Shown here one piece after another: positions 11,863 through 47,520 of a stretch of DNA of 47,520 nucleotides. The DNA is from an uncultured Algibacter sp. GTDB taxonomy: Bacteria; Bacteroidota; Bacteroidia; Flavobacteriales; Flavobacteriaceae. The stretch is taken from assembly GCA_947502405.1 (NCBI GenBank), contig CANMZT010000020.1, forward strand, positions 1-47,520. Direction: 5' to 3'. Every line of letters starts with the position of its first letter. The stretch's first letter is position 1. The translations under genes and the position numbers were made by a program. The notes below the pieces were generated by a model, which was not told the DNA's origin, did not search any database, and saw only the letters and a list, made by a program, of their open reading frames with translations.

Positions 11863-12015
11863 GGGCGTTACCCCGAAAAGGGGTCAGGCTTTCCGCTATA
11901 TCTTTTTAAAAGTCATTGCGAGGAGTTTACGACGTGGCAATCTGCTTAATTCTAGTTCAAAACAAACAGTATTACATTCTATTTTTTAAAAAGGATGCCG
12001 CTTCAATCCTTAACG
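11863..12015 (+). repeat. GGGCGTTACC element with a nested GTCATTGCGAGG repeat
   Basis: The outer ends are GGGCGTTACC and CAATCCTTAACG. Between CTATATC and AAAGGATGCCGCT it carries an inner repeat (11912-11945, GTCATTGCGAGGAG...GTGGCAATCTGC), in the same arrangement as the copy at 44061-44216. The copy at 6873 lacks the inner part. Confidence 0.7.
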
Positions 12016-12110
12016 TGGAGTGTATTTGCTGTTTTTGAGTTAAATATTATTGAAAGTCTATTTTGAAAGGTGTTTTTGTTAATTATATCGTATTTGTTGG
12101 CAGAAATAAT

Positions 12111-23792: not shown

Positions 23793-23842
23793 TTTTTTTT
23801 TTTTTTTGCCAACAGCCAACAGCCAACAGCCAACAGCCAACA
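23793..23842. repeat. T15 tract and five tandem GCCAACA heptamers
   Basis: Fifteen T (23793-23807) are followed by five perfect copies of GCCAACA (23808-23842), ending one base before the trpG stop codon (complement of 23844-23846). Seen from the operon strand it reads as (TGTTGGC)5 followed by A15 directly after trpG. Confidence 0.85.
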
Positions 23843-23843
23843 G

Positions 23844-24410
23844 CTAATTATTAACCCAATTCTCTAAAATCTTTTTACCATCTGGTGTTAAAACAGATTC
23901 GGGGTGGTATTGTACACCTCTAACATCATATTTTTTGTGTCTTAAAGACATCACTTGTCCGTTTGCATCAAAAGAAGTGGCTTCTAAAGGTTCTGGTAAT
24001 TCTGAATTTACAACCCAAGAATGGTAACGACCAACTTCTATGTTTTTGTCTAAATCGTTAAAAATATATTCATCATCTACACATATAGTTACATTGGTTG
24101 CAACGCCATGATATACATCATCTAAATTTACTAACGAACCGCCAAATACTTCGCCAATGGCTTGCTGGCCTAAGCATACCCCAAAAATACTTTTGGTGGC
24201 AGCGTATTTTTCAATAATAGCTTTTAGTAAACCTGCTTCATCTGGAATTCCTGGACCTGGCGATAACACTATTTTATCAAAAGGTTCTACATCTTCTAGA
24301 GCTAATTTGTCGTTTCTTACTACGGTAACGTCACAGTTTAAATCTTCTAAATAATGTACAAGATTGTATGTGAAACTGTCGTAATTGTCTATAACTAATA
24401 CTTTTTTCAT
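23844..24410 (-). CDS. trpG: Anthranilate synthase component II (glutamine amidotransferase)
   Basis: A 188-residue class I glutamine amidotransferase that supplies ammonia to TrpE. IDNYDSFTYNLVHYLEDLN, LSPGPGIPDEAG, IFGVCLGQQAIGEVFGG with the nucleophile Cys, RYHSWVV and VQYHPESVLTP with the His and Glu of the triad are all present. It starts one base after the trpE stop, so the two are translationally coupled. It could also serve folate synthesis (PabA); the operon position favours tryptophan. Confidence 0.95.
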   Translation of the reverse strand: MKKVLVIDNYDSFTYNLVHYLEDLNCDVTVVRNDKLALEDVEPFDKIVLSPGPGIPDEAGLLKAIIEKYAATKSIFGVCLGQQAIGEVFGGSLVNLDDVYHGVATNVTICVDDEYIFNDLDKNIEVGRYHSWVVNSELPEPLEATSFDANGQVMSLRHKKYDVRGVQYHPESVLTPDGKKILENWVNN

Positions 24411-25830: not shown

Positions 25831-26200
25831 GTCTTTTCCGCGAAGGCGGAAATTTTTTTGTTTTATTATATAAAGAAATGTGATAAATCATTCCAATGTG
25901 GATTTAAATCATTAATAAGGTTTATTTTCCAGTGCCTATTCCATTTCTTTATTTGCTTTTCTCTTTTTATTGCTTCTCCAGCAGTTTCAAAATTTTCATA
26001 ATAAACCAATACATCTAGTCTATGTTTATTTGCAAACCCTCTGGTGTATTTCTTTTTATATTGAGTTAGTCTTTGTTTTATATTACCTGTCATTCCTATA
26101 TACAAAATGCCATCCTTTTTATTTGTTATAATGTATATGTAATATGTTTTATCGTTAAACATTGAACGAACCTCATGATTTCCGTCTTCGCGGAAATGAC
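25831..26200 (-). mobile_element. Candidate 370-bp element: GIY-YIG gene between inverted REP-like ends
   Basis: The left end GTCTTTTCCGCGAAGGCGGA (25831-) and the right end, read on the minus strand GTCATTTCCGCGAAGACGGA (26200 down to 26177), are inverted copies of one palindromic repeat, each starting GTC at the outer edge. Inside is one gene only, the GIY-YIG protein. ACT occurs directly outside both ends, a possible 3-bp duplication. Removing the element would place trpE about 25 nt after the attenuator T-run. Mobility is inferred, not shown. Confidence 0.6.
25866..26162 (-). CDS. Small GIY-YIG nuclease-domain protein
   Basis: A 98-residue stand-alone GIY-YIG domain. YYIYIITN and LYIGMTGNIKQRL hold the GIY and YIG strands with the conserved Arg, VYYENFETAGEAIKREKQIKKW contains the Tyr and the metal-binding Glu, and the tail INLINDLNPHWNDLS is typical of the Bacteroidetes group of small GIY-YIG (UPF0213/URI-like) proteins. 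It should cut DNA with one metal ion. It lies between inverted palindromes and inside the trp leader-trpE interval on the same strand, so it should be transcribed with the trp genes when the attenuator is open. A related copy is at 40598. Confidence 0.88.
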   Translation of the reverse strand: MFNDKTYYIYIITNKKDGILYIGMTGNIKQRLTQYKKKYTRGFANKHRLDVLVYYENFETAGEAIKREKQIKKWNRHWKINLINDLNPHWNDLSHFFI

Positions 26201-40501: not shown

Positions 40502-40581
40502 GTCATTTCAACATGACAATGCGTATTCTAATTTAGTTCAGATAGTCATTTCGACGCTAGGAGAAATCACATTCGAGTAAG
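40502..40581 (+). repeat. REP-like repeat left of the second GIY-YIG gene
   Basis: Contains GTCATTTCAACATGAC (40502-40517) and then a complete left arm GTCATTTCGACGCTAGGAG from 40545, continuing AAATCACATTCGAGTAAG. The latter matches the left arms of the 44.4-46.3 kb array except for a few bases. Confidence 0.75.
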
Positions 40582-40597
40582 AAATAATTATTTTAAT

Positions 40598-40897
40598 ATG
40601 GAAAACAAATATTTTGTTTACATCACAACAAATAAATACAGAACAACTTTATACATAGGCTTCACTAACAATATTCAAAATAGACTATCACAACATTATT
40701 TTGATTCTCAAAATGCTAAAAAATCATTTGCAGGTAAGTATGGTTGTGTTTATTTGGTGTATTATGAAACGTTTGAATTTCCAAAACAAGGTATTGCAAG
40801 AGAAAAAGAATTAAAAAAGTGGAGGCGGGAAAAGAAGAATAAATTGATTTCAGATTTTAATCCAAAATGGGAAACACTCAATAATGAAGTATTTTGA
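40598..40897 (+). CDS. Small GIY-YIG nuclease-domain protein, second copy
   Basis: A 99-residue stand-alone GIY-YIG domain: YFVYITTN, LYIGFTNNIQNRLSQH with the conserved Arg, VYYETFEFPKQGIAREKELKKW with the metal-binding Glu, and a tail LISDFNPKWETLNNE. It is a paralogue of the protein at 25866 (shared layout, REKxxKKW and NPxW tail). It is bracketed by the GTCATTTCGACG...AGGAGAAATC repeats at 40545 and 40911, the family that makes up the nearby arrays. DNA cleavage within or near the repeats is an attractive but untested role. Confidence 0.88.
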   Translation: MENKYFVYITTNKYRTTLYIGFTNNIQNRLSQHYFDSQNAKKSFAGKYGCVYLVYYETFEFPKQGIAREKELKKWRREKKNKLISDFNPKWETLNNEVF

Positions 40898-40910: not shown

Positions 40911-41252
40911 GTCATTTCGACGTCAGGAGAAATCGCATGGTGGATATTGTTATTTTGTTATATATCAATTAAATGTGATGTCTCAATCGTGCCTCATTTC
41001 GACATGACAAAACTAATACTAATTTACTATTGATAGTCATTTCGACGTAAGGAGAAATCACATCATCTTTAGTTTTAGTCAATATTTGCTTACTCTAATG
41101 CGATATCTCAATCGTACCTCATTTCGATATGACAAAACTAATACTAATTTACCATTGATAGTCATTTCGACGTAAGGAGAAATCACTTCATCTTTAGTCT
41201 TAATCAATGTTTGCTTACTCTAATGCGATATCTCAATCGTACCTCATTTCCA
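40911..41252 (+). repeat. Three tandem hairpin units, 125-bp period
   Basis: Units start at 40911, 41036 and 41161 (period 125 bp). Each runs GTCATTTCGACG..AGGAGAAATC, then a 40-bp variable middle, then ATCTCAATCGTRCCTCATTT and CGATATGAC, and a linker ending TTGATA. The reverse complement matches the B-type units (123 bp) of the array at 44.4-46.3 kb, so this small array is inverted relative to them. The rest of the spacer to 41382 holds only the promoter region of the next gene. Confidence 0.85.
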
Positions 41253-41301
41253 CATAAAAAACCACACATTATTTGCTAAACTTCTCAAACCAACCATTCG
41301 T

Positions 41302-44060: not shown

Positions 44061-44216
44061 GGGCGTTACCCACAAGGGGTCGGGCTTTCCGCTATATCTT
44101 TTTTTTAACGTCATTGCGAGGAGCGAGCAACGTGGCAATCTGTACAAAAGTAGTTCTAACCACCAATTCAGGTGTATCATAAAAAAAAAGGATGCCGCTG
44201 CAATCCCTAACGCGGG
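44061..44216 (+). repeat. GGGCGTTACC element with nested GTCATTGCGAGG repeat
   Basis: Outer ends GGGCGTTACC and CAATCCCTAACGCGGG. An inner repeat at 44110-44143 (GTCATTGCGAGGAGCGAGCA, then ACGTGGCAATCTG) sits between CTATATC and AAAAGGATGCCGCT, as at 11863-12015. Confidence 0.75.
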
Positions 44217-44254
44217 TCAATCCGCAAAAGCCATTTACCAAAACCTATTACTCT

Positions 44255-44319: not shown

Positions 44320-46308
44320 TTATAATGCGATTTCTCGTCGCTATTCCTATAACTATCGGAATCGCGCTTTCGAAATTACAAGGAATGTTAAACAAAGTTA
44401 CTTTAGTCATGTCGAAATGAGGCACGATTGAGACATTGCATAAGAGTAAGCATGTTGGGTTAACAAAAATAATGCGATTTCTCACATAAGTTCGAAATGA
44501 CTAAGCAACATAAATTAAAAAGCGATTAGTCATGTCGACGTTAGGAGGCATCGCATTTGAGTAAGCGAACAACAGATATTCCAAAACATGATGCGATTTC
44601 TCGTCGCTCCTCCGATAACTATCAGAATCGCGCTTTCGAAATGACAAGGAATGTTAAACAAAGTTACTTTAGTCATGTCGACGATAGGAGACATCGCATT
44701 TGAGTAAGCGAACAAAAGATATTCCAAAGCATGATGAGATTTCTCGTCGCTTATGCTTCGCTCTGTCGAAATGACAAAAGGCAATAAATAAAACAACGTT
44801 AGTCATGTCGACGCTAGGAGATATTACATTTGAGTAAGCAAATAATACGTATTCTTAAACATGATGCGATTTCTCGTCGCTCTTCCGATAACTATCGGAA
44901 TCGCTCTGTCGAAATGACAAGGAATGTTAAACAAAGTTACGTTAGTCATGTCGAAATGAGGCACGATTGAGACACCGCATTAGAGTAAGCATGCAGGATT
45001 AACAAAAATAATGCGATTTCTCACATAAGTTCGAAATGACTAAGCAACATAAATTAAAAAGCGATTAGTCATGTCAACGCTAGGAGACATCGCATTTGAG
45101 TAAGCGAACAACAGATATTCCAAAGCATGATGAGATTTCTCGTCGCTCATGCTTCGCTCAGTCGAAATGACAAAAGGCAATAAATAAAACAACGTTAGTC
45201 ATGTCGACGCTAGGAGATATCACATTTGAGTAAGCAAATAATACGTATTCTTAAACATGATGAGATTTCTCGTCGCTCTTCCGGTAACTATCGGAATCGC
45301 GCTTTCGAAATGACAAGGAATGTTAAACAAAGTTACTTTAGTCATGTCGAAATGAGGCACGATTGAGAAATCGCATAAGAGTAAGCATGCGGGATTAACA
45401 AAAATAATGCGATTTCTCACATAAGTTCGAAATGACTAAGCAACATAAATTAAAAAGCGATTAGTCATGTCAACGCTAGGAGATATCACATTTGAGTTAG
45501 CAAATAATACGTATTCTTAAGCATGATGCGATTTCTCGTCGCTCATGCTTCGCTCTGTCGAAATGACAAAAGGCAATAAATAAAGCAACGTTAGTCATGT
45601 CGACGCTAGGAGACATCGCATTTGAGTAAGCGAACAACAGATATTCCAAAGCATGATGCGATTTCTCGTCGCTCTCCAGATAACTATCGGAATCGCGCTT
45701 TCGAAGTGACTAGGAATGTTAAACAAAGTTACTTTAGTCATGTCGGCGCTAGGAGATATCACATTTGAGTAAGCGAACAACAGATATTCCAAAGCATGAT
45801 GAGATTTCTCGTCGCTCATGCTTCGCTCTGTCGAAATGACAAAAGGCAATAAATAAAGCAACGTTAGTCATGTCAACGCTAGGAGACATCACAATTGAGT
45901 AAGCGAACAACAGATATTCCAAAGCATGATGCGATTTCTCGTCGCTCTCCCGATAACTATCGGAATCGCGCTTTCGAAATGACTAGGAATGTTAAACAAA
46001 GTTACTTTAGTCATGTCGAAATGAGGCACGATTGAGACATCACAAAAGAGTAAGCATGTTGGGTTAACAAAAATAATGCGATTTCTCACATAAGTTCGAA
46101 ATGACTAAGCAACATAAATTAAAAAGCGACTAGTCATGTCGACGCTAGGAGATATCACATTTGAGTAAGCGAACAACAGATATTCCAAAGCATGATGAGA
46201 TTTCTCGTCGCTCATGCTTCGCTCTGTCGAAATGACAAAAGGCAATAAACAAAACAACGTTAGTCATGTCGACGTTAGGAGACATCACAATTGAGTAAGT
46301 ATCATTAA
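44320..46308 (+). repeat. Higher-order array of hairpin repeats (three unit types)
   Basis: Fifteen unit starts (GTCATG) at 44406, 44529, 44672, 44802, 44945, 45068, 45198, 45341, 45464, 45594, 45737, 45867, 46010, 46133 and 46263, after one truncated unit at 44320. Spacings are only 123 (type B), 143 (type A) or 130 (type A'). Each unit is an imperfect inverted repeat from GTCATGTCGA.. to ..TCGAAATGAC, with a type-specific linker: TAAGCAACATAAATT.. after B, AAGGAATGTTAAACAAAG.. (a few copies start TAGG) after A, AAAAGGCAATAAATAAA.. after A'. The order is A,B,A,A',A,B,A',A,B,A',A,A',A,B,A', partial. ORFs in it are by-products of the repeats. Confidence 0.93.
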
Positions 46309-46522
46309 ACTATAAAATAAAAGGATACCGCTACTCCCGATAACTATCGCGACTAAAACGGGTTCAGGCATACTATTTATATATTATATTAAGTAAGAAA
46401 ATTATAGGTTTTTATAGTATTGTTTAGTATTTTTCTGGCAGATAAATAAAACTTAATATATATTAAATTTTCTTATAGCTAACTATAACGAAGGTATAAG
46501 CTTATAAAGTTGCGTATATAAA

Positions 46523-46540
46523 TAAGTTGTAAACAACTTA
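46523..46540. promoter_or_regulatory. Palindrome upstream of the PLD-like gene
   Basis: TAAGTTGT-AA-ACAACTTA is a perfect 8-bp inverted repeat 26 bp before the start codon, in an otherwise featureless A+T-rich 250-bp spacer (46309-46566). It may be an operator. Confidence 0.45.
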
Positions 46541-46566
46541 CGAAAACCGAGAAACTGAAATAAATA

Positions 46567-47298
46567 ATGGCAAAATTTTTAAACACGACAGGTGTTTCAT
46601 ATCATTTAGAAGAACTAATTAAAACTACAAAAGACCGACTGATTTTAATTAGTCCATATCTTCAATTTCACAAAAGAGTAAAAGACCATTTGGAAAATCT
46701 GAACATTCAAAAAAGAGACATCCGAATTATTTACCGAGAGAATAAATTACAAGTTGAAGAAAGTAATTGGCTTGAAAGTCAAATCGGAATTAGAACCAGT
46801 CTTTGTAATTCACTTCACGCAAAATGTTATCTGAACGAAAATGAGGCAATCGTAACTTCAATGAACTTATATTCTTTCTCACAGCAGAATAATGACGAAA
46901 TGGGAATTCACGTTACGAAAGAAAAAGATGCTGACTTATACAATGACATTTATGACGAAGTTCAAAGGTTATTAACGATTAGCGAAGAAATTAGAGTTTC
47001 CGTTAAAAAAGTTGATAAGGAAATAGAAAAGAAAACTGAAAGCACAATAAAAAAAGTTCAGCAGAATAAAGACTATTCAAAATCTAAATTATTAACAACT
47101 AAAGAATTGTCGAATTTGACTGGTTTAAGTAGTCGAAAAGTTAATAAATGGTTTACCGACAATAAACTGATGTATAAAAAAGAAGACGATTGGATAACAA
47201 CAAAACGTGGAAAAGAAACTGGCGGAATTGAGAAAAATGGACAATATGGACAATTTGTTGTTTGGCCAGAAGATATTGCAGAACACATAAGCGAATAA
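46567..47298 (+). CDS. Phospholipase D-like nuclease-domain protein
   Basis: A 243-residue protein. Residues about 1-130 form a single PLD-type domain with SLHAKCYLNENEAIVTSMNLYSFSQQNNDEMGIH, in which HxK and the later Ser-x-Asn form the HKD-like active site (the Asp is replaced by Asn/Glu). One domain per chain suggests a dimer, as in Nuc/BfiI-type nucleases. The C-terminal part has KLLTTKELSNLTGLSSRKVNKWFTDNKLM, a helix-turn-helix-like segment that may bind DNA. It sits between the repeat array and a long fold-back repeat beside an IS element, so it is probably accessory. Confidence 0.75.
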   Translation: MAKFLNTTGVSYHLEELIKTTKDRLILISPYLQFHKRVKDHLENLNIQKRDIRIIYRENKLQVEESNWLESQIGIRTSLCNSLHAKCYLNENEAIVTSMNLYSFSQQNNDEMGIHVTKEKDADLYNDIYDEVQRLLTISEEIRVSVKKVDKEIEKKTESTIKKVQQNKDYSKSKLLTTKELSNLTGLSSRKVNKWFTDNKLMYKKEDDWITTKRGKETGGIEKNGQYGQFVVWPEDIAEHISE

Positions 47299-47308
47299 AA
47301 AACTGTTT

Positions 47309-47440
47309 ACGACAATGGCTATAAGTAATTACTTGTTTTCGCCTACTTCTGAAAATCCTCGCGGATTTTCAGTTTGGTGCGTACTTGCAAAGTTTAGTAC
47401 TAACCCACGCAACTACTCATAGCCGAGACCGTTGCCAGTA
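47309..47440. repeat. Long fold-back element after the PLD gene
   Basis: An outer pair GGCTATAAGTA (47317-47327) / TACTCATAGCC (47414-47424, one mismatch) flanked by CAAT and GTTG, and a perfect inner hairpin CTGAAAATCC (47349-47358) TCGC GGATTTTCAG (47363-47372). The inner hairpin together with separated outer arms resembles the fold of attC sites, but the canonical attC core motifs are not evident. No gene lies in it. Confidence 0.6.
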
Positions 47441-47444
47441 ATGC

Positions 47445-47520
47445 TGACCCGTCCTGAATAAAGGCTACATAATTTTAAACATTATGTACAAAAATGACAA
47501 AGTAATTAGACGGTATTCAG
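47445..47520 (+). mobile_element. Left end of an IS3-like insertion sequence (cut by the window)
   Basis: TGACCCGTCCTGAATAAAGG at 47445 looks like a terminal inverted repeat starting with TG, and a transposase-like frame starts 39 bp later. The right end is outside the window. Confidence 0.65.
47484..47520 (+). CDS. IS3-family transposase orfA, N-terminal fragment
   Basis: An ATG at 47484 opens a frame that runs off the window: MYKNDKVIRRYS. This matches the usual start of Bacteroidetes IS3-family OrfA proteins (KNDKVIRRYSESFK-like), which carry the helix-turn-helix that binds the IS ends. Only 12 residues are visible, so the family call rests on this stretch and on the upstream terminal repeat. 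Confidence 0.6.
   Translation, partial: MYKNDKVIRRYS

Follow-up and report, generated by a model that had tools for sequence, protein, structure and literature searches.

CGTC-tagged REPs have been recorded in five phyla and, in the part of the survey available to us, are described as apparently lacking a dedicated transposase (Di Nocera et al., 2013, PMC3733652). That part of the survey recognises families 1–4 by an unpaired terminal CGTC, with TGTC or CCTC as variants, and gives them a stem of 8–9 bp with A–T pairs at its first two positions, a loop of 4–5 nt, a mostly head-to-head dimeric arrangement and a CCA tail. The REPIN/RAYT system likewise consists of an inverted REP pair and a partner enzyme gene, with more repeats where the gene is present, but it uses a GTAG tag and a Y1 transposase; RAYT genes are described, in the sections accessible to us, as single-copy and vertically inherited (PMC8049555). 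The GIY-YIG domain is known from homing endonucleases and Slx1-like proteins, and Slx1 is cited as acting in the maintenance of rDNA copy number, that is, of a tandem array (PMC1564403, in part). In the accessible portion of that 2006 survey of GIY-YIG nucleases REPs go unmentioned and the string “palindrom” does not occur, while a 2025 survey of REPs contains neither “transposase” nor “endonuclease”. Among the matches listed in our literature search, which lay outside preprints and most subscription papers, no paper was found that links a GIY-YIG enzyme to REPs.

The locus described here lies in the window, by which we mean the whole stretch of 47,520 nucleotides from an uncultured Algibacter sp., a marine flavobacterium (genome G000), that was analysed. 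It carries a tandem array of 14 complete units whose lengths, as the initial annotation had stated, take only the values 123 bp (n = 4), 130 bp (n = 5) and 143 bp (n = 5), here named B, A′ and A respectively, each type having its own linker. The array reads, on the + strand, (part of A) B A A′ A B A′ A B A′ A A′ A B A′ (part of A). Its left edge is the right half and linker of an A unit (44322–44405, with homology from approximately 44322 and a similar edge in genomes G007 and G008), and this is followed by unit 1 (B, 123 bp, 44406–44528), unit 2 (A, 143 bp, interior type 1, 44529–44671), unit 3 (A′, 130 bp, interior type 1, 44672–44801) and unit 4 (A, 143 bp, interior type 2, 44802–44944). 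Superunit 1 (44945–45340) is composed of B at 44945–45067, A′ at 45068–45197 and A at 45198–45340, and superunit 2 (45341–45736) of B at 45341–45463, A′ at 45464–45593 and A at 45594–45736. The array continues with unit 11 (A′, 130 bp, 45737–45866), unit 12 (A, 143 bp, 45867–46009), unit 13 (B, 123 bp, 46010–46132) and unit 14 (A′, 130 bp, 46133–46262), and ends in a partial left arm (46263–46303). All fifteen left arms, which start at 44406, 44529, 44672, 44802, 44945, 45068, 45198, 45341, 45464, 45594, 45737, 45867, 46010, 46133 and 46263, begin with GTCATGTC, as had been noted. The right arms were said to keep GAAATGAC, which is true of 13 of the 14 units; the unit at 45594 has GAAGTGAC.

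Satellite higher-order repeats consist of units of several types in a fixed order, with the resulting superunit itself repeated. The 396-bp superunit B-A′-A does occur twice in succession as annotated, the two copies being 91.7% identical, and Tandem Repeats Finder reports a period of 396 (score 1867) for the array, besides other registers. Pairs of units of different type are 71–91% identical across the array, and 75–82% when the units of different type within the two superunits are compared in order; the superunits are therefore more alike than the units inside them, as in a higher-order satellite. To this extent the likeness to satellites proposed in the initial annotation stands, but it is superficial. 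The window array is bacterial, 2 kb long, and its superunits are only 91.7% identical. The division into three unit types is clear for the right halves and linkers and fails for the left halves of the ten A and A′ units: these show two interior types, each of which occurs with A as well as with A′. The three unit types are thus mosaics, and as two interior types and two right-half types occur in every combination, recombination or conversion must have happened inside units. Elsewhere in the window, a heptamer tandem repeat (GCCAACA, 5.3 copies) is found at 23808–23844. Rfam Flavo-1 matches are present on the − strand at 44074–44221 and 11878–12019, each containing the REP seed GTCATTGCGA, which suggests that Flavo-1 is at least partly a repeat element.

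Each array unit consists of two REP-like monomers joined head to head, which carry their GTC tags outward and have their own short stems. The left monomer has the form GTC-ATGTC…GACAT, where the closing strand is often GATAT and once GGCAT; in two B units it is GACAC or GAAAT and the pairing is broken. The right monomer, read on the other strand, is GTC-ATTTC…GAAAT. The monomers in the window have 5-bp stems and loops of approximately 10–37 nt. Covariation was examined at one stem pair in 290 distinct monomers, drawn from the window, 80 named loci and ten further stretches and picked without reference to the pair tested. The pair is Watson–Crick in 275 of them, with all four pair types represented, whereas 20,000 shuffles gave no more than 220; among the window monomers alone it is Watson–Crick in 12 of 14, where 5.9 are expected. 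When the same position is instead compared across both arms of 117 dimers, there is agreement in 75, and independence gives approximately 77.5.

The fixed mismatch that the initial annotation saw in the stem was accordingly a result of pairing the wrong arms. The covarying stem sits inside each arm and agreement between arms is close to independence, so that a mismatch appears only when one arm is forced to pair with the other; on the same two observations we rejected a single arm-to-arm stem as the conserved structure. Folding energies neither establish this nor rule it out: the monomer hairpins are thermodynamically weak (z of −0.66 to 0.79), and folds of whole units favour arm-to-arm pairing (z of −2.0, −0.6 and −1.9).

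The repeats share with CGTC-tagged REPs the outer GTC tag, a stem starting with A–T pairs and the head-to-head arrangement (PMC3733652, in the part available): the stems of the window units begin with AT, and all 14 complete units are head-to-head dimers. The tag reads TGTC in the right arms of A′ and of three of the five A units, and AGTC in the right arms of the other two A units and of B and in all left arms. The window monomers differ in having the shorter, 5-bp stem and a longer loop, and in having no CCA tail directly after the stems of the units; because of their stem length and tail we do not file them under families 1–4. Nor are they REPINs in the strict sense, as their tag is GTC and no REP-flanked RAYT was found; they also differ from the REPIN/RAYT system in their low copy number, their tandem arrays and their candidate GIY-YIG partner.

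This candidate, which the initial annotation missed, is a single-domain GIY-YIG nuclease gene of 99 codons' worth of protein (99 aa; 40598–40897, + strand; Pfam PF01541, E = 6.2e-14), located 3.4 kb upstream of the array among REPs of the array's own family. We propose it as the partner enzyme. A REP monomer, GTCATTTCGACG..GAGAAATC, lies just upstream of the gene (40545–40571, + strand). Three REP dimers follow on the + strand, their ends being read from the sequence: dimer 1 just downstream of the gene (40911–41008), dimer 2 with a 125-bp period (41036–41133), and dimer 3 with a decayed right end (41161–41258). The leader of the nuclease gene has the motif ATT[C/T]GAGTAAG after the REP in common with 8 of the 10 A and A′ units. 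We note that positions 40502–40517, GTCATTTCAACATGAC, look like a REP dimer whose two ends have been joined and whose interior is lost.

Residues Y8, Y19, G21, R29, H33, E69 and N88 of the GIY-YIG protein are invariant over 18 aligned rows, and presumably have the catalytic role of their counterparts in other members. The two PDB sequences matched by the protein are UPF0213 proteins. Comparison with Seonamhaeicola gives 37 synonymous and 4 non-synonymous codon changes, which points to purifying selection on the gene. Between G000 and the sister species G007 and G008, third codon positions in the gene are 92.9% identical, versus 56–78% in neighbouring genes (omitting values of 43 and 45% from a histidine-kinase query, probably a paralogue match). 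The block of high identity spans approximately 40552–40850, and a second stretch (83–95%) covers the downstream dimer. Third positions compared with Seonamhaeicola are 60.6% identical in the GIY-YIG gene, similar to the 58.9–77.1% of its neighbours, and 38.5% in a diverged 867-aa gene. These identities fit an exchange of the cassette between lineages, and may be a hint of mobility or of homing, in which an enzyme cleaves an allele that lacks the element and the element is then copied in. Seonamhaeicola and one of the two Flavivirga amylovorans copies have the cassette in the same position, so that it is old and largely vertical there, as has likewise been described for RAYT genes (PMC8049555, in part). 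For the same reason the idea that the locus was gained in the clade of G000, G007 and G008 was dropped, and loss in the five relatives without it is possible.

Further small GIY-YIG genes of G000 lie at 25878–26144 (− strand), C6:80686–81399, C8:11725 and C18:1187, next to REP-like repeats of other kinds (GTCATTCCTGC, GTCATTCCGCACTTG, GTCATTCTGA and GTCATTTCCGCG). The pair on contig C6 looks like a tandem duplication of a whole cassette.

The association of gene and repeat extends well beyond this locus. Using a four-row protein alignment as the query, and selecting by protein alone, we obtained at least 80 relatives in named genomes, which by title are mostly Bacteroidota and Balneolaceae, with one from Dadabacteria. 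Of the 79 relatives with full flanks, 64 have a REP signature no more than 200 bp away on each side, compared with 4 of 265 control ORFs (mechanically called, with a minimum length of 90 aa; p = 1e-49) and 2 of 65 control ORFs matched for size. The sequence GAGAAATC occurs near the gene in 79 of 79 relatives versus 30 of 265 controls, and only one of the 80 (L221) has no REP signature within 300 bp. The density of strict REP matches around the relatives is 7.4 per kb at 0–100 bp versus 0.10 at 2–4 kb. The nearest REPs show no preferred orientation over the 80 loci (tags outward in 26, inward in 22 and in the same direction in 26, with one or both sides missing in 6).

Other small GIY-YIG ORFs of the family show a related tendency: flanking inverted repeats with a score of at least 12 occur at 31 of 73, compared with 9 of 386 controls and 0 of 4 uvrC genes. 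The 73 come from at least 75 small GIY-YIG matches listed, with short open frames kept, tandem copies counted singly, and two at contig ends left out. Under a stricter hairpin definition, applied to 72 of these matches, the signal is weaker, with hairpins on both sides at 12 of 72 ORFs versus 4 of 297 controls. Another set of small GIY-YIG genes in family genomes (L113, L120, L127, L142, L144, L145, L148, L149, L151 and L158) is located at tRNA genes rather than REPs; a tRNA gene is present in 10 of 11 such loci scanned. Several of these genes are in tandem copies with partial tRNA-like duplicates, and at L148 the copies are arranged in 304-bp steps at a tRNA-Pro gene.

The neighbourhood of GIY-YIG gene and REP is clade-specific in Bacteroidota. 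This was surveyed in 120 family genomes from 119 genera, which are related to each other, with clade score cut-offs (120 and 140 bits) chosen after the scores were seen. At least five strict copies of the REP of clade d, to which the window gene belongs, are found in 8 of 12 genomes with a clade-d gene versus 2 of 108 others (p = 2.5e-8; rank test, 3.5e-9), and there is no clear relation of the clade-d gene to the clade-b REP, GTCATTGCGAG..GCAATC (p = 0.20–0.38; rank test, 0.09). Clade b is associated with its own REP at a threshold of at least one copy (11 of 12 versus 32 of 108, p = 4e-5) and of at least two (9 of 12 versus 24 of 108, p = 4e-4; rank test, 1e-5), and not significantly at five or more (3 of 12 versus 10 of 108, p = 0.12); its relation to the clade-d REP is less clear (p = 0.06–0.32; rank test, 0.14). 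There are exceptions in both directions. The clade-d REP occurs without a clade-d gene in G045 (13 copies) and G069 (11), G047 and G122 have a clade-d gene beside variant REPs with no strict match, and the clade-b REP is common without a clade-b gene at the cut-off in G025 (32), G118 (22), G014 (16) and G000 (15). Exact matches to the REP pattern number 17 in G000, of which 13 are in the window.

The stem type of the REP also follows the GIY-YIG tree, requiring 12 changes over 30 loci (minimum of 17 in 300 shuffles) and 21 over 102 loci (minimum of 34 in shuffles). The trees were made with FastTree and have mostly weak forks. A total of 166 loci were kept, 142 of them with a hairpin; the 102-locus set comprises nine named stem types, and the 30-locus set includes the window gene and another gene twice, and some tandem copies.

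Similar flanking hairpins are present in several proteobacterial records and one cyanobacterial record. A protein search of plasmid records gave 34 matches, of which 12 plasmid or chromid records were examined, with no control ORFs scored. GTC-tagged hairpins occur on both sides of the GIY-YIG gene within 200 bp in 8 of the 12 (Azospirillum, Rhizobium CIAT894, Shinella, Neorhizobium, Novosphingobium, Sphingobium, Planktothrix and Spirosoma). By the rule of our script the hairpin is on one side only in Photobacterium and in S. meliloti, the latter with a further flanking inverted repeat, and it is absent around the gene in 2 of the 12. In Azospirillum the GIY-YIG gene is located between sufB and sufC, with CGTCATCCCCGCGAAGGCGGGGATCCA on both sides. 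The repeats beside several of the alphaproteobacterial genes, such as that of Azospirillum, have a CGTC tag and a CCA tail and look canonical in these two features. The neighbourhood of gene and REP across many related bacteria suggests a GIY-YIG enzyme as candidate partner for a repeat class thought to have none.

The array itself was searched for in ten genomes of the genus, including G000. The sister species G007 and G008 have short versions of it at the same place, beside the same gene and with similar edges, arranged as (half A) B A′ (half A) or (half A) B A′ A′ (partial), with only 2 and 3 complete units. In G001, G002, G003, G006 and G009 the neighbouring gene is present, and the searched REP seeds are absent within 1.5 kb of it. 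The B units of the array are 93–97% identical to each other and 94–98% identical to those of the sister species. As they differ from each other about as much as from the sister-species units, there is no sign of recent homogenisation, and the sister lineages may have undergone contraction. We considered whether the array is unusually conserved on the ground that it exceeds the 867-aa neighbour in identity, an argument that is weakened by the rapid divergence of that neighbour and by the 84.7–87.3% DNA identity of the response-regulator gene. The identity of the B units to their sister-species counterparts (94–98%) nevertheless exceeds that of third codon positions in neighbouring genes (56–78%).

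Two further genomes, G121 and G045, have similar dimer arrays. That in G121 has steps of mostly 146–155 bp and contains a GIY-YIG gene inside it, in a 508-bp step. That in G045 (L274, G045:C9:73500–77000) has approximately seven units of 138 or 139 bp with two linker types that partly alternate, and left monomers of the form GTC-ATATC…GATAT, in a genome with no clade-d nuclease match. The initial annotation had inferred growth of the window array by unequal crossover or repeated copying of blocks from REPIN-like units. Our results support paired REP-like units and block duplication, and the hybrid units show recombination within units; a single stem with a fixed mismatch is not supported. We note that the array is followed (46380–47460) by a flank shared with G002, G007 and G008, after which each genome seems, on reading the sequences, to have a gene of its own; the gene here encodes a PLD-like protein (PF13091), and the region may be a variable-gene hotspot.

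We consider it probable that the array consists of non-autonomous REP dimers in tandem, with a GIY-YIG nuclease of the adjacent kind as the candidate partner that acts on the repeats. The alternative to be weighed most carefully is a passive array, made by host replication slippage and unequal recombination, with a GIY-YIG gene that has no connection to it: a selfish ORF with a preference for palindromic intergenic DNA, by which REPs are not moved. A distance of 3.4 kb separates array and gene, the G045 array of approximately seven units exists without a clade-d match, and local amplification of REPINs is probably carried out by host replication and not by RAYT (PMC8049555, in the part available), all of which are as a passenger gene would predict. 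However, enzyme and REP are paired clade by clade, and the copy number of the REP follows the GIY-YIG gene, neither of which is expected of a passenger. We therefore regard this alternative as unlikely. An ordinary REPIN origin, in which a RAYT-like tyrosine transposase mobilises the repeats, would account for the same paired-REP architecture; but the only Y1_Tnp match in the genome lies in a 3.3-kb locus without the searched REP seeds, and the tag is GTC and not GTAG. As the single Y1_Tnp match is not flanked by REPs detectable with these seeds, we rejected this origin, and give it very little credence.

Two other readings concern the array as such. It comes after a + strand gene whose product has a T9SS sorting domain, and adjoins one of the Flavo-1 matches, and so could be a structured RNA or regulatory region (a terminator, mRNA stabiliser or small RNA) for that upstream gene. 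Inside the array, however, there are no Rfam matches at the gathering threshold, the folds are weak, and the five relatives within the genus have the gene without the searched REP seeds within 1.5 kb; in Flavobacterium psychrophilum, moreover, Flavo-1 matches are reported to lie indistinctly sense or antisense to transcribed regions (PMC9723704, in part). The lack of Rfam matches at that threshold and the weak folds led us to reject the array as a structured-RNA gene, and we think a regulatory role of this kind improbable. An assembly artefact or a chimera of several loci would be favoured by the draft state of the genome (81 contigs) and by the contig end 1.2 kb past the end of the array, but the units diverge from one another by several percent and short versions occupy this position in two further assemblies, which makes such an error most improbable.

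The reading that we favour, a GIY-YIG nuclease acting on REP dimers, would work as follows. The nuclease would recognise the GTC-tagged REP hairpin and presumably cut or nick there, and repair of the breaks from other REP copies would cause the dimers to spread and be rearranged. In tandem clusters, unequal exchange between arms would generate hybrid units; here, such exchange between the arms of a short B-A′-A locus may have produced the 396-bp higher-order pattern. The system would thus operate like REPIN/RAYT, with a GIY-YIG nuclease replacing the tyrosine transposase. More tentatively, and as a possibility that falls short of being probable, many small single-domain GIY-YIG genes of bacteria may be the mobilising enzymes of GTC-tagged REPs, each clade matched to its REP family, with arrays as a by-product.

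If this is correct, GIY-YIG nucleases would move a class of hairpin elements, every enzyme clade having a REP family of its own, and higher-order arrays would arise as a by-product when REP hairpins are cut and repaired again and again. The movement of REPs would become directly testable, with a protein of 99 residues and a short hairpin. The gap left by the apparently missing transposase of CGTC-tagged REPs would be closed by a clade-matched GIY-YIG partner, provided that it acts on repeats of this kind, and a common uncharacterised gene family would acquire a role.
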